Under the pieces are notes generated by a model. It was not told where the DNA came from, searched no databases, and was given only the letters and a program-made list of their open reading frames with translations. A stretch of DNA of 42,487 nt from a virus. Position 1 is the first letter of the stretch. Each line of letters begins with the position of its first letter. The DNA is taken from the IMG/VR virus record IMGVR_UViG_3300034105_000706, positions 1 to 42,487 of that record. One strand, written 5' to 3'. The position numbers and the translations under genes were made by a program. This document shows, piece by piece, positions 2,687 to 7,298 of the stretch.

Positions 2687-2950
2687 ATGAAGAAGTTCTT
2701 ATACGACCTGTTTAATGATAACAATAGCATTAATGAAAAAGCTGTTGTTGGGTTTGTTGCTTTTCTTATGTTAGTAATTTCTCTAATTGTTGACCTGGTT
2801 ACAGGTTGGTTAGGTAGAGAACTCCTCATCAATGAGTTCATATTTGATGGATTCATGGTGATTACCCTAGGTGCATTCGGTATTGCATCAGTGGATAAAT
2901 GGATTAACAAAACAAAAGGAACAACTAATAAAGATGAAGAACCTCAGTAA
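2687..2950 (+). CDS. Holin-like membrane protein
   Basis: The ATG at 2687 is preferred to a TTG six bases upstream. The product is 87 residues with two hydrophobic segments (about 20-41 and 52-70) and a charged, Lys/Glu-rich C-terminus, the usual class II holin layout. It lies directly after the endolysin, and its last 17 bases overlap the start of the PAS protein, suggesting coupled translation. The holin assignment is by architecture and position; no family was recognised with certainty. Confidence 0.75.
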   Translation: MKKFLYDLFNDNNSINEKAVVGFVAFLMLVISLIVDLVTGWLGRELLINEFIFDGFMVITLGAFGIASVDKWINKTKGTTNKDEEPQ

Positions 2951-4049
2951 AGAAGAGCTACTAAGTAGATTGGAGGCAATCAACAGAAGTAATGCTATTA
3001 TTTACTTCGACCTAAATGGCGTTATTCTTGGAGTTAATTCCCTCTTTTTACAAACGATGGGATATAAGGATGGTGAACACGAAAAGATTATTGGCCAACA
3101 CCATAGTATTTTTGTTTCTCCTGAATATGTAAAGTCAGATGAGTATAAAAGGTTTTGGGAAACGCTAAGAGCAGGAAAGTTCTTTGAGGGGGAGTTTGAG
3201 AGGGTAAAAGTAGATGGCAATCTTATTTATCTACAGGCAACCTACAATCCGATACTAAATGAGGAGGGTGAGGTAACTAAGATAATGAAGATTGCTAGTG
3301 ATGTAACTACAACGGTTATAGCAAAGAATGAGATTAATGCAGTAGGTAGAAGTAATGCCATTATCTATTTTGATTGTGATGGATACATACTAGGCGCAAA
3401 CTCAATCTTTCTAAAGGCAATGGGCTTTGGTGAGAATGACGAAAGTAAAATTATTGGAAAGCACCACAGCATTTTTGTTAGCTATGAGTATTCAAAGTCA
3501 GAAGAGTACAAGGAGTTTTGGACCAAGTTAAGCAGTGGTAAGTTCTTCGAGGGTGAGTATGAAAGAAAAAAGGTAGATGGTAGCTCCATTTATTTGAAGG
3601 CAACTTACAATCCTATACTCAGTAACGATGGAACCTGCAAAAAAGTAATGAAAATTGCTAATGACATCACTGACACTATAGATAAGAAAAACAAGATTGG
3701 CGAACTCTCTAAAAGTTTGCAAGCAGAGTTGGATAACTCAAACAAGCTTAGAGTAGCGATTGAAATTGAAAAGGACGCAGCATTAAATGATTTGGATGCA
3801 ACGATAAAGAAAAGTCAAAGCGAATTGATAAAGGTGATAGTTAAATGTGCCTTAGGGGTCATAATAGGCGTTGGACTTGTGACAACTTTCATGTATTCTT
3901 TCGCAATGTTTTCAAGCAAAGACACACAGATAATAGGATCAACATGGAGTAACATGTTTAGCGTATTGCTCACTAATGCATTTTCTATTGTTGGAACAAT
4001 TATGGGCATTAAATATGCCACACAGGACGAGAAAAAAGATAAAAAATAA
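2934..4049 (+). CDS. Double-PAS sensor protein with two C-terminal membrane helices
   Basis: The ATG at 2934 (371 residues) lies inside the end of the upstream holin-like gene. Two PAS domains (about residues 15-125 and 137-247) are close duplicates, sharing RSNAIIYFD, IIGxHHSIFVSxEY, GKFFEGExER and ATYNPIL. These motifs are typical of the PAS domains of chemoreceptors and BdlA-like proteins, which bind haem or flavin. A charged helical linker (250-295) leads to two membrane segments (about 299-320 and 340-360) and a Lys-rich tail. There is no kinase, methyl-accepting or cyclase output domain. The membrane hairpin with charged tail resembles a holin, so a sensor-controlled pore or lysis-timing protein is inferred. 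It could instead tamper with host chemotaxis or aerotaxis signalling. PAS proteins are rare in phages. Confidence 0.85.
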   Translation: MKNLSKEELLSRLEAINRSNAIIYFDLNGVILGVNSLFLQTMGYKDGEHEKIIGQHHSIFVSPEYVKSDEYKRFWETLRAGKFFEGEFERVKVDGNLIYLQATYNPILNEEGEVTKIMKIASDVTTTVIAKNEINAVGRSNAIIYFDCDGYILGANSIFLKAMGFGENDESKIIGKHHSIFVSYEYSKSEEYKEFWTKLSSGKFFEGEYERKKVDGSSIYLKATYNPILSNDGTCKKVMKIANDITDTIDKKNKIGELSKSLQAELDNSNKLRVAIEIEKDAALNDLDATIKKSQSELIKVIVKCALGVIIGVGLVTTFMYSFAMFSSKDTQIIGSTWSNMFSVLLTNAFSIVGTIMGIKYATQDEKKDKK

Positions 4050-4055
4050 ATCAAA

Positions 4056-4181
4056 ATGGCCAAATCAAAATCATCAGGCGACTCCCGTAAGGTGAACTTT
4101 GGGAAGCGTAAAGGTGGGAAAGCTAAGAAATCTAGCGGACCCAAGGACAAAAAGGTCTCTAAATACAGAGGTCAAGGATAA
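4056..4181 (+). CDS. Small basic protein, 41 aa
   Basis: ATG follows the preceding stop by six bases. The product is Lys/Gly/Ser-rich (begins MAKSKSSGDSRKV, ends VSKYRGQG) with almost no hydrophobic residues. It looks like a conserved small phage protein and resembles in composition the basic proteins at 8359-11343. Nucleic-acid binding is likely from charge alone; no domain was recognised. Confidence 0.65.
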   Translation: MAKSKSSGDSRKVNFGKRKGGKAKKSSGPKDKKVSKYRGQG

Positions 4182-4208
4182 CTAAAACCCCCCATATGGA
4201 CGGTGACC

Positions 4209-4424
4209 ATGCTAAGAAAACAAAGAAACAGGCTAACAGCCCTAAGAGACGCATCCCTAATGCTAGCGATGTTCTTCCTACCGTTTGGGTACGACTTCCT
4301 TTTCAAGTTGATAATGGAGGTAACTGGCTCATTCTGGAAGGCAGATCTTATCTTCTATGGAATCTCCGCATCATTCTTTGTCTCCTATATTTTGCTGTCC
4401 AGATATTTAAACAAAGTTAGTTAG
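4209..4424 (+). CDS. Small membrane protein, two predicted helices
   Basis: The ATG at 4209 is preferred over GTG at 4203. The 71-residue product begins with a basic stretch (MLRKQRNRL) followed by two hydrophobic segments (about 15-35 and 45-65), so the N-terminus is probably cytoplasmic. It is the last gene of the first plus-strand unit, just before the inverted repeat and promoter at 4416-4497. It may be another lysis-cassette protein or a second holin. An overlapping frame at 4196-4420 lacks such structure and is taken as a shadow. Confidence 0.65.
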   Translation: MLRKQRNRLTALRDASLMLAMFFLPFGYDFLFKLIMEVTGSFWKADLIFYGISASFFVSYILLSRYLNKVS

Positions 4425-4503: not shown

Positions 4504-5547
4504 ATGCCAATACCTTCAAGACAAATAGGCTGGAGCACACAGGATAACCTGTTGTGGCAGATTGCTAAGCAAATGGAGCAGGCTGAATGTCAGCTCTGTA
4601 CGCTTAACGATAACATCGAAACCTTTGGAGGAACATCTGGCACTAGTGGTACCTCTGGATCAACAGGTGCAGCTGGAGATAGATATCAAACTACATCTTC
4701 TACATCATTTACATTAGGAACTGGTGGAACCATAACTGTAGGTACAGGATTGGCATACACAGTTGCTCAAGATATATTGATAGCCCGTGATATTAATAAC
4801 CATCAGGTTTCAATGGTTATATCATACAACCCTACTACAGGGGTTTTGGTGTTCGATGCTCCTTCTGAAGTGACAGGATCAGGAACTTATAGTTCTTGGG
4901 GTGTAAACCTTAATGGAGCTGCTGGTGGTAATGGTTCTAATGGTACTTCTGGTACATCAGGACTAACTGGTTCTTCTGGCACCTCTGGTTCTTCAGGAAC
5001 ACGAGGCACCTCAGGTACAAGTGGCTTAACTGGATCTTCTGGAACTACAGGTACATCAGGAACTAGTGGAGTTAATGGAGCTGTTGGTGGTTATTTAGGA
5101 TCTTTTTATGATACTACTACTCAAACAGGAGTTGCAGGAAGTGTTCTTACAATGGGTCTTAATAATTCAGATTCTTGGAATAGTGGTGTTTCACTTGTTT
5201 CTGGTAATCAAATAACAATAGCTAATCCTGGTGTATATAACATAGCATTTAGTGCTCAGATGGTAAAAAACAGTGGCAACACTGCTACACATGCTCATAT
5301 ATGGTTATCACAAAATGGTACAAATGTACCTATTAGTGCTTCACAAATAGGATTTCCTTCTAACTCTGTGTATGTTGTAGCAGCTTGGAATTTCTTTTTC
5401 AAGACAACAGTTGCAAATGAATATGTTCAACTTAAGTGGGAAATAAATAGTAATGCAGATAATGCAATAGCAATTACATCAGCTGTAGCTTCAGGAAATG
5501 TTCCTGCTATTCCTGGTCTAATTATAACAGTAAATCAAGTAGGATAA
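4504..5547 (+). CDS. Collagen-like tail fibre/adhesin with C1q-like tip
   Basis: This is a 347-residue virion surface protein. Residues 1-44 form an anchor domain (IPSRQIGW, LLWQIAKQ, CQLC) shared with the short gene at 5565. A first GTSG/GST repeat (about 46-58) is followed by a small beta domain (60-135). A longer Gly-x-y tract of GTSG, GSSG and GLTG units (about 138-196) should form a collagen-like triple helix. The last 150 residues (GVYNIAFSAQ; WNFFFKTT, YVQLKW) have the alternating pattern of a trimeric C1q/TNF-like jelly roll, a common receptor-binding tip. Attachment to host surface glycans is inferred. Repeat length may vary by slippage. It is the first gene of its own transcript. 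Confidence 0.85.
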   Translation: MPIPSRQIGWSTQDNLLWQIAKQMEQAECQLCTLNDNIETFGGTSGTSGTSGSTGAAGDRYQTTSSTSFTLGTGGTITVGTGLAYTVAQDILIARDINNHQVSMVISYNPTTGVLVFDAPSEVTGSGTYSSWGVNLNGAAGGNGSNGTSGTSGLTGSSGTSGSSGTRGTSGTSGLTGSSGTTGTSGTSGVNGAVGGYLGSFYDTTTQTGVAGSVLTMGLNNSDSWNSGVSLVSGNQITIANPGVYNIAFSAQMVKNSGNTATHAHIWLSQNGTNVPISASQIGFPSNSVYVVAAWNFFFKTTVANEYVQLKWEINSNADNAIAITSAVASGNVPAIPGLIITVNQVG

Positions 5548-5564
5548 TATAAAATATTAATATA

Positions 5565-5711
5565 ATGGCAATACCATCAAGAGGAATAGGCTGGGGTACA
5601 ACAGAGAACTTGTTATGGCAAATAGCTAAACAGCTGGAGGGTATTTCCTGCCAGCTTTGTGATTTAAATAACAACTTCACCACCACCACCACGACTACTA
5701 CCACCGCGTAG
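5565..5711 (+). CDS. Short virion-anchor protein with poly-Thr tail, 48 aa
   Basis: The first 38 residues closely match the N-terminal anchor of the fibre at 4504: IPSR-IGW, NLLWQIAKQ-E and CQLC-LN are shared. Instead of a collagen-like shaft, the chain ends in nine Thr and one Ala. The frame ends at TAG 5709-5711, so this is a complete short gene rather than a frameshifted fibre: no downstream frame continues it. It probably caps or decorates the same virion site as the fibre. The Thr run resembles those of the two genes at 6774 and 7028 and could be O-glycosylated (inference). Confidence 0.75.
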   Translation: MAIPSRGIGWGTTENLLWQIAKQLEGISCQLCDLNNNFTTTTTTTTTA

Positions 5712-5740
5712 TGATTATACAAAACCAACAAACTACATAT

Positions 5741-6757
5741 ATGAAGGATCTTAAGTATGTCTGTGTTCAACCAGATGACACCTACTACACATGGCAGGTA
5801 CATCTTTGGTTAGAAAGCCTTAGGAACAGAAATGAGTCTGACAAGGCGATTGTTCTCATCTTCATCCCTAGCTATAGGGAACAAAATCCCAAATGGGAGC
5901 AAGTGATGAGGCTCTATCCAGAAGCTGAATTTCATTTCTACAAAGACAAGGATGATGTAAGCTCTCTGTTAGGTATATACATCCCAGTGCTTAGACCATA
6001 CACCCTGTGGAGACACTGGAAAGAACATCCTGAACTTAGCGACAAAGCTATTTTCTACTGTGACTCAGATGTTTTGTTTACACAAAAGTTTGACGTTCAA
6101 CAGTTTATAGACGATGATGTGTGTTATCTCTCTGAAACAACTAGTTACATAAGCGCTGCTTATTTTGATAGCAAGGTGAACGATGTTCTCCCTGAGAAGC
6201 TAGAGGAATACAAGACAAGAGATATTCTTGCAGAGATAGGCAGTGTGATTGGTATCAGCAGGGAGGAAGCAGAGGCTAAGAATAATGATTCTGGTGGAGC
6301 TCAATACCTCCTCAAGAATGTAGATGCTAAGTTTTGGAACAAGGTGATGAACGATTGCATCCTAATCAGAAGCTACCTCCAGAGAATAAACAAAGAGTAT
6401 TTTGAAAGTGAAGATAAAGGATTTCAAAGCTGGTGTGCTGACATGTGGGCTGTGCTGTGGAATCTGTGGGTGAGAGAAAAAGAGGTGAAGGTGATTCCTG
6501 AAATGGGATTCTCCTGGTCTCCTGACCCAATAGAGAAACTGGAAACACATCCAATCCTTCATAATGCAGGTATTGTAGCTACAGAAATGGATGGCTACAA
6601 ATGTTTTTATAAAGGTAAATACCACCTAGGATCTGATCCTACCAAGGACGAACACCTAGACGCTATATTGAACGATGAGAAATCAATGGTGAGATGTACG
6701 GGGTATTACGCAAATGAACTTAAGAAATTATCAAACAAATATAACCTAAACTATTAA
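5741..6757 (+). CDS. Glycosyltransferase (GT-A type)
   Basis: The ATG at 5741 is preferred over GTG at 5711, which overlaps the upstream stop. The 338-residue product has a GT-A-like fold pattern, with the metal-binding DxD in IFYCDSDVLF. An acidic helical middle follows, then a Trp-rich acceptor region (SWCADMWAVLWNLW). It lies between a poly-Thr protein and two more Thr-rich proteins, all on one transcript. Glycosylation of these Thr tails is an attractive but untested inference. The sugar donor cannot be told from the sequence. Confidence 0.8.
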   Translation: MKDLKYVCVQPDDTYYTWQVHLWLESLRNRNESDKAIVLIFIPSYREQNPKWEQVMRLYPEAEFHFYKDKDDVSSLLGIYIPVLRPYTLWRHWKEHPELSDKAIFYCDSDVLFTQKFDVQQFIDDDVCYLSETTSYISAAYFDSKVNDVLPEKLEEYKTRDILAEIGSVIGISREEAEAKNNDSGGAQYLLKNVDAKFWNKVMNDCILIRSYLQRINKEYFESEDKGFQSWCADMWAVLWNLWVREKEVKVIPEMGFSWSPDPIEKLETHPILHNAGIVATEMDGYKCFYKGKYHLGSDPTKDEHLDAILNDEKSMVRCTGYYANELKKLSNKYNLNY

Positions 6758-6773
6758 CCATTAAATTTTTACA

Positions 6774-7016
6774 ATGGGAAGCAATTCATCACAACGCTTA
6801 AAAGCTTATGTCCGCTTCGATGGAAGTGGCAGAATAGTTGCAGGTAGTCTTATACTAAGAAGAAATAAGCCCAAGGTAGGTAAGTGGGTGGAAATTCCAG
6901 CGTATGAGTGCTGCAATCCTACTACTACTACAACTACTACTGGTGTACCTGTCACTACAACAACCACCACTACTGTTCCTGCTACAACTACTACAACTAC
7001 CACATCACCTGGGTAA
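6774..7016 (+). CDS. Cys-Cys / poly-Thr decoration-type protein, copy 1
   Basis: This is an 80-residue protein. Residues 8-45 are a compact domain (KAYVRFDGSGR, AGSLIL, KPKVGKW, AYECCNP). The tail consists of three runs of seven Thr separated by GVPV and VPA, ending SPG. It is a paralogue of the next gene, with nearly every domain residue conserved. The domain probably sits on the virion (the Cys pair could form disulfides) and the Thr tail projects outward. The ACN codon runs are slippage-prone. Function is inferred from composition and neighbours. Confidence 0.75.
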   Translation: MGSNSSQRLKAYVRFDGSGRIVAGSLILRRNKPKVGKWVEIPAYECCNPTTTTTTTGVPVTTTTTTTVPATTTTTTTSPG

Positions 7017-7027
7017 AACATTAACTT

Positions 7028-7288
7028 ATGGCAACTAATAATAAATTAAAAGCATACGTTCGTTACGATGGTACAGGACGTGTTATCGCTGGTAGCTTGA
7101 TTCTTCAGAGATTCAAACCAAAGGTGGGTAACTGGCAGGAGATTGATGCGTACGAGTGTTGTAATCCAACAACTACAACTACTACAAGTAGTGCTCCTAC
7201 AACCACTACGACTACAACAGTGCCTGCTACAACCACCACTACTACCACTGTGCCTGCTACAACCACCACGACTACCACAGCTCGCTAA
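7028..7288 (+). CDS. Cys-Cys / poly-Thr decoration-type protein, copy 2
   Basis: This 86-residue paralogue of the gene at 6774 has the same core (KAYVRYDGTGR, AGSLIL, KPKVGNW, AYECCNP). It has one six-Thr and three seven-Thr blocks spaced by SSAP and VPA. It is one repeat unit longer than copy 1, consistent with expansion of the 30-bp unit at 7220-7279. Tandem duplication of the whole gene is evident. The frame on the other strand (poly-Val) is a shadow. Confidence 0.75.
   Translation: MATNNKLKAYVRYDGTGRVIAGSLILQRFKPKVGNWQEIDAYECCNPTTTTTTSSAPTTTTTTTVPATTTTTTTVPATTTTTTTAR
7220..7279 (+). repeat. 30-bp tandem repeat encoding VPA + seven Thr
   Basis: Units 7220-7249 and 7250-7279 differ at only two third-codon positions. 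Each encodes VPATTTTTTT. A diverged related unit lies just upstream, and another in the preceding gene (6975-7005). Recent duplication or slippage is likely. Confidence 0.8.
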
Positions 7289-7298
7289 AAACTGAACA

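Follow-up and report, generated by a model that had tools for sequence, protein, structure and literature searches.

The window, which is the whole stretch of DNA analysed here (42,487 nucleotides, positions 1 to 42,487 of IMG/VR virus record IMGVR_UViG_3300034105_000706), carries a gene for a membrane protein with two PAS sensor domains within a group of phage lysis genes. The question raised by this locus is what such a sensor does there. An earlier note, made from the sequence alone, saw in it a pore or lysis regulator that reads redox, oxygen or energy state.

Architecture of the PAS-hairpin gene and its lysis cassette

The following features were distinguished in the PAS-hairpin gene and around it:

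1270-1587, + strand: 105-aa protein with a coiled coil and a C-terminal transmembrane (TM) segment, XhlA/'hemolysin'-like (phrog_937, E=5.9e-7)
1595-2206, + strand: 203-aa protein with an N-terminal membrane anchor (neighbour cluster 38, near related cassettes), possibly with a spanin/Rz-like role
2213-2680, + strand: endolysin, Peptidase_M15_3 (PF08291, 1.1e-21; phrog_894, 5.6e-40)
2687-2950, + strand: 87-aa two-TM holin-like protein ('hol3' family), with relatives in Flavobacterium immuto phages
2934-4049, + strand: PAS-PAS-helix-2TM gene, 371 aa (ORF call, profile matches, AlphaFold2 model)
2988-3308, + strand: PAS domain 1, aa 19-125 (profile match, FAD-type residues, model)
3102-3104 and 3156-3158, + strand: FAD-type residues H57 and W75 of PAS 1 (99/99 two-PAS proteins)
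3351-3671, + strand: PAS domain 2, aa 140-246 (profile match, FAD-type residues, model)
3465-3467 and 3519-3521, + strand: FAD-type residues H178 and W196 of PAS 2 (139/139 proteins)
3669-3836, + strand: long signalling-type helix, aa 246-301, running on into TM1 (modelled as a single helix, 246-327)
3837-3908, + strand: TM1, about aa 302-325, variable among relatives (hydropathy, conservation)
3924-4022, + strand: invariant 33-mer TQIIGSTWSNMFSVLLTNAFSIVGTIMGIKYAT, aa 331-363, turn and TM2 (58/58 representatives, 143/143 complete unique proteins)
4023-4046, + strand: Lys-rich C-terminal tail, aa 364-371, predicted to be cytoplasmic (ORF translation, model)
4203-4424, + strand: 73-aa two-TM protein downstream of the PAS gene

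The ORF at 2934-4049 starts with ATG, and hundreds of IMG/VR contigs share its architecture, which shows that it is not due to chance. Profile searches and structure prediction, two of the checks suggested in the earlier note, both recovered its PAS domains. The 371-aa protein is matched by TIGR00229 (E=2.8e-24) and PF08447 (E=1.1e-19), in two stretches each, and PF00989 and PF13426 also score above their cut-offs, which places both copies in the PAS superfamily; the copies share 64% identity over 112 aa. An AlphaFold2 model built from 51 relatives (mean pLDDT 82; pTM 0.44, which is low and makes the relative placement of the domains unreliable) contains two PAS folds and an unbroken helix (246-327), which a turn of 3 residues joins to another helix (331-363); the Lys-rich tail is disordered. 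The TM segments were called by a simple hydropathy method. No output domain was found in Pfam, PHROG and TIGR/NCBIfam profile searches, and neither the profiles nor the model revealed the C-terminal MCP signalling domain of methyl-accepting chemoreceptors, the TM hairpin being the end of the protein. The near-duplicate PAS domains, helical linker, membrane hairpin, Lys tail and missing output domain described in the earlier note are thus all confirmed, as is its reading of the surrounding genes: the ATG lies within the 3' end of the hol3 gene (17-nt overlap), and the M15_3 endolysin is directly upstream of hol3, i.e., one gene beyond it from the PAS gene.

Downstream, the PAS gene is followed by a 41-aa Lys/Ser-rich basic peptide (4056-4181) and by the 73-aa two-TM gene, which also occurs in two further loci (L001 and L004) and is retained in L163, a locus without a PAS gene. 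The region 4504-7290 encodes a series of small proteins with collagen-like TSG/GTSGTSG repeats and Thr-rich tails (TTTTTT), two of which have a common N-terminal motif (MPIPSRQIGW / MAIPSRGIGW); these are possibly virion decoration proteins.

Distribution of the family and its lysis neighbourhood

Profile scans of IMG/VR with different patterns yielded 271, 212 and 497 confirmed relatives (the sets overlap), and thus up to 497 related loci, whose products join the same hairpin to a single PAS domain (about 250 aa in all) or to a pair (about 370 aa) and whose overall identity drops to about 58-65%. All relatives come from this single collection and are not fully independent, the carriers being exclusively metagenomic contigs, many of them fragmentary and partly related. 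PAS and hairpin always occurred together (215/215 PAS ORFs of the viral loci retrieved), with no case of a stand-alone hairpin or a hairpin-less PAS among these ORFs. The hairpin was not found in a scan of 84,980 bacterial species genomes, nor was a hairpin ending seen among the 79 bacterial PAS relatives examined. A search of the cultured-phage collection revealed no record of the family: it gave three matches, of which the two opened ('phage' records MT836939.1 and OR848229.1) resemble bacterial chromosome contigs with chemoreceptor genes and were rejected as carriers. The hosts of the carriers are presumably Bacteroidota, a suggestion drawn only from the hol3 relatives in Flavobacterium phages.

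Neighbouring ORFs were clustered for 119 non-redundant loci, and the neighbourhood count was restricted to the 84 loci in which three genes were available on either side of the PAS gene; positions at least 7 genes away within the same loci served as control centres (n=278). An endolysin or holin-like gene was located at most three genes from the PAS gene in 81/84 loci, and an endolysin in 77/84, as compared with 1/278 (endolysin) and 0/278 (holin-like) for the control centres. In a separately fetched set, each of the 31 loci had an endolysin within 3.5 kb of the PAS gene. Phage_lysozyme, GH19, M15_3 and Phage_holin_4_1 are among the families of its neighbours, and the PAS gene stays constant while the endolysin switches among the M15_3, GH19 and phage lysozyme types and the small membrane proteins vary among several families, Phage_holin_4_1 included. 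The association of the PAS-hairpin gene with lysis genes is therefore strong; the PAS-PAS-2TM arrangement beside endolysins, which the earlier note proposed to look for in related phages, is present across many loci, and homologues are by no means confined to places away from lysis genes. Three loci lie apart from lysis genes (L111, L113 and L126). In L111 and L113 the PAS-hairpin gene, with the 33-mer still present, stands alone amid replication genes, and a search of these two contigs for M15_3, PF05105 and hol3 found none.

Comparison with loci lacking the gene points to the slot that it occupies. L163 has the gene order of the window on both sides, except that its endolysin is of the GH19 and not the M15_3 type; the slot behind hol3 lacks a PAS gene and is occupied by genes for a 1TM coiled-coil protein, a lipoprotein and a coiled-coil/TM protein. 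In other hol3 loci the same slot is filled by a holin gene of the PF05105 type or by one encoding a 3TM holin-like protein. Since PAS-less relatives hold holin- or spanin-like genes there, the PAS gene occupies a position at which membrane proteins for lysis are encoded. For hol3 cassettes it is also optional, as 42 of the 44 best-matching hol3 loci are devoid of it.

FAD-type PAS domains and an invariant membrane hairpin

The nearest bacterial PAS domains (about 43-53% identical) belong mostly to methyl-accepting chemoreceptors, in agreement with the chemoreceptor/BdlA type named in the earlier note, and also to hybrid kinases in Bacteroidota. A PDB profile search retrieved solved structures of MmoS, Aer and NifL only, all of them FAD redox sensors; MmoS was also the top fold match of the model (Foldseek E=2.5e-16), and the phototropin LOV domain was the weakest match in a single-sequence PDB search. 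MmoS and NifL, which among solved structures are closest in sequence and fold, differ from the phage protein in being histidine-kinase-type sensors of bacterial gene regulation.

In PAS domains the F-alpha Trp is the primary determinant of FAD binding, secondary determinants are His (clusters 9 and 14) or Asn (clusters 4 and 14), and the NifL/AerC/Aer clusters are FAD-binding groups (PMC10468136). The FAD-site Trp of Aer is W70 (PMC9668731), and both PAS domains of BdlA have been assigned to FAD (PMC8694187). The counterparts of Aer W70 (W75 and W196) and of the FAD-site His, Aer H53 (H57 and H178), are invariant in the phage family. The equivalents of Aer N85 are R90/R211 and those of Aer R115 are A121/A242, and because of these replacements the pocket is not identical to that of Aer. 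The presence of Trp and His and the lack of Asn correspond to the pattern of cluster 9, that of AerC-like chemoreceptors. This constitutes a good FAD signature at the sequence level, and the domains probably bind FAD. Haem is not favoured, as every PDB profile match is a FAD protein, and a LOV/FMN type was rejected: the photo-active Cys is absent, the LOV Cys region aligning with HHSIF. Of the cofactors named in the earlier note, haem or flavin, it is thus flavin that is retained, and a PAS domain bare of any cofactor pocket is not what the conserved residues describe.

Like the phage protein, the E. coli aerotaxis receptor Aer (PDB 8DIK) and AerC couple a cytoplasmic PAS domain of the FAD type through a helix to a membrane anchor (PMC9668731, PMC10468136), with the FAD-site His and Trp conserved. 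The phage protein differs from them in the replaced N85 and R115, in the lack of a HAMP or methyl-accepting signalling domain, in its unrelated, invariant hairpin and in being phage-encoded beside lysis genes. Chemoreceptors of the BdlA/McpS type share the PAS subtype and the tandem arrangement, but these bacterial proteins have an MCP or kinase output at the C-terminal end, where the phage versions have the membrane hairpin.

Residues 331-363 of this hairpin are identical in all 58 representatives (each below 93% identity) and in all 143 complete unique proteins, the 144th being cut by a contig end. Part of this set was found by a 7-residue pattern inside the invariant stretch; the 271-relative set, which was found by PAS patterns only, has the same hairpin identity. 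Identity is 67-70% in TM1 and the linker, which are free to vary. Four-fold sites differ by 55.7% in the 33-residue stretch and by 54.7-57.9% in the PAS, coiled-coil and TM1 regions; as synonymous sites are as diverged here as elsewhere, the constraint acts on the protein and not on DNA, and this saturation rules out a recombination site or a recent sweep. Thirty-three membrane residues fixed against saturated synonymous change are rare in themselves and point to a device of precise construction in the membrane. Small or polar residues (N340, S343, T347, S351, G354 and G358) line one face of TM2, a weak pattern by shuffling (P=0.086).

Canonical holins, including Phage_holin_4_1 (PF05105), resemble the phage protein in their membrane hairpin, lysis-cassette position and Lys-rich tail, and PF05105-type holins hold its slot in relatives. 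A small TM protein beside the endolysin is what is expected of a holin, and the PAS protein has two TM segments and lies beside lysis genes (81/84 and 31/31 loci), though it is unusually large (250-371 aa vs. about 70-150 aa) and, in contrast to holins, carries sensor domains. The hairpin has no match in Pfam, PHROG, NCBIfam or PDB and no sequence or profile link to any holin family; hhalign tied it to none of hol3, hol4 and hol14, the hol14 score (6%) being dismissed.

A possible role in lysis timing

The best explanation of this locus, for which we see about an even chance, is a FAD/redox-sensing membrane effector of the lysis cassette that sets the time of lysis. The lysis association claimed in the earlier note has been borne out, and its redox-sensing pore or regulator is kept here as a proposal. 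According to this proposal, one or two cytoplasmic FAD-type PAS domains (Aer/AerC/BdlA) would sense the redox state of flavin and hence host respiration, and the continuous helix would relay the change in PAS into the two-helix hairpin in the inner membrane. The conserved second helix may then work as a holin-type effector in the membrane, through self-assembly, and its action would advance or delay the release of endolysin. The carrier phages may in this way read the redox or energy state of the host to decide the moment of lysis. In the strictest form of the proposal the protein would be a flavin-PAS-gated holin, in which the redox or respiratory state, read by the cofactor, directly switches the invariant hairpin and sets the lysis time; this new class of lysis effector we regard as tentative.

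Known holins are triggered by the collapse of membrane energy, and to our knowledge none has its own sensor domain. Nor do we know of a cofactor-bearing PAS domain in the lysis-inhibition systems T4 T/RI or ICP1 TeaA/ArrA. Since energy poisons trigger holins and collapse lysis inhibition, lysis is already coupled to membrane energy (PMC7182436), and the PAS protein would be a dedicated sensor added to this coupling. That lysis systems sense the environment is known mainly from the lysis inhibition brought on by superinfection (PMC7182436). T4 T/RI and ICP1 TeaA/ArrA resemble the proposed system in that environmental sensing is tied to lysis timing and is sensitive to energy poisons (PMC7182436), but they are holin-antiholin pairs that respond to superinfection. 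A search of the open literature for PAS together with holin, endolysin, lysis cassette or lysis timing retrieved nothing relevant. Gating, if proven, would make the PAS-hairpin protein categorically new, and a flavin-PAS-gated holin would mean that hundreds of uncultured phages control lysis through an energy sensor built into the effector. With a FAD-type PAS and an invariant membrane helix in a single widespread protein, phage reading of host metabolism for the lysis choice would become directly testable with one gene.

The adjoining 2TM proteins suggest another mode of action. Families hol3 and hol4 comprise proteins of about 80 aa that are common in these lysis cassettes; they are homologous (hhalign 95%) and widely divergent, neither Pfam nor PHROG has a family that describes them well, and in Flavobacterium immuto phages hol3 is annotated merely as hypothetical. 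A member of either family is encoded nearby in 54/84 loci (sum of neighbour combinations), and 12 of 16 contigs picked mainly for lacking one nearby also proved to have one (11 strong matches, one weak, E=1.7e-4). As most carriers thus encode a hol3/hol4 protein, the PAS protein is not the sole holin candidate; the idea that it is the sole holin, which came from loci without a nearby 2TM gene (L089-L091), is weakened by the hol3 found elsewhere in those contigs. The PAS protein could instead be a redox-sensing antiholin or regulator, whose hairpin binds the adjacent hol3/hol4 protein and frees it when FAD changes state. The gene order speaks for such pairing, with hol4 directly upstream of the PAS gene (-1) in 26 loci, hol3 in 15, and the PAS start inside the upstream gene in 37, as do the homology of the two families and the hol3 copies elsewhere in most carrier contigs that lack one nearby. 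However, a partner-specific interface would be expected to co-vary, and the hairpin is identical whichever holin family adjoins it, or none, while hol3 and hol4 diverge widely. This independence favours self-assembly (or a universal host target), so that direct action of the PAS protein on the membrane is more likely than partner-specific antiholin action, a reading that we consider rather unlikely.

The sensing step of the favoured explanation would fall away if the PAS domains only oligomerised or stabilised a holin or other lysis membrane protein, free of cofactor. PAS domains often dimerise, and their number, one or two on the same hairpin, would suit this role, but the FAD-site His and Trp are invariant in both copies across 139 proteins whose overall identity is about 58-65%, and we judge the cofactor-free alternative improbable. 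More improbable still, by a little, is a function outside lysis, i.e., a redox sensor, anchored in the membrane, that excludes superinfecting phages or takes over host respiration and only happens to be encoded in the late operon: the three loci outside lysis cassettes (two of them by replication genes), the hitch-hiking of other phage accessory genes in late operons and an invariant TM helix that could bind a conserved host target would agree with it, but the nearly strict lysis context with changing partners, and the holin- and spanin-like genes that closely syntenic relatives put in the same slot, argue against it.

An apparently PAS-like region was also noticed among the lysis genes of a cultured phage. 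In Cellulophaga phage phi19:1, gp108 (NC_021799, 54202-54924; L297:6203-6925), matched by length to the Foldseek match R9ZZL0 (E=1.8e-4), is a TM and coiled-coil protein whose C-terminal part is seemingly PAS-like; its gene is located between holin-like genes and a GH19-like lysozyme gene, and its architecture differs from that of the PAS-hairpin protein.
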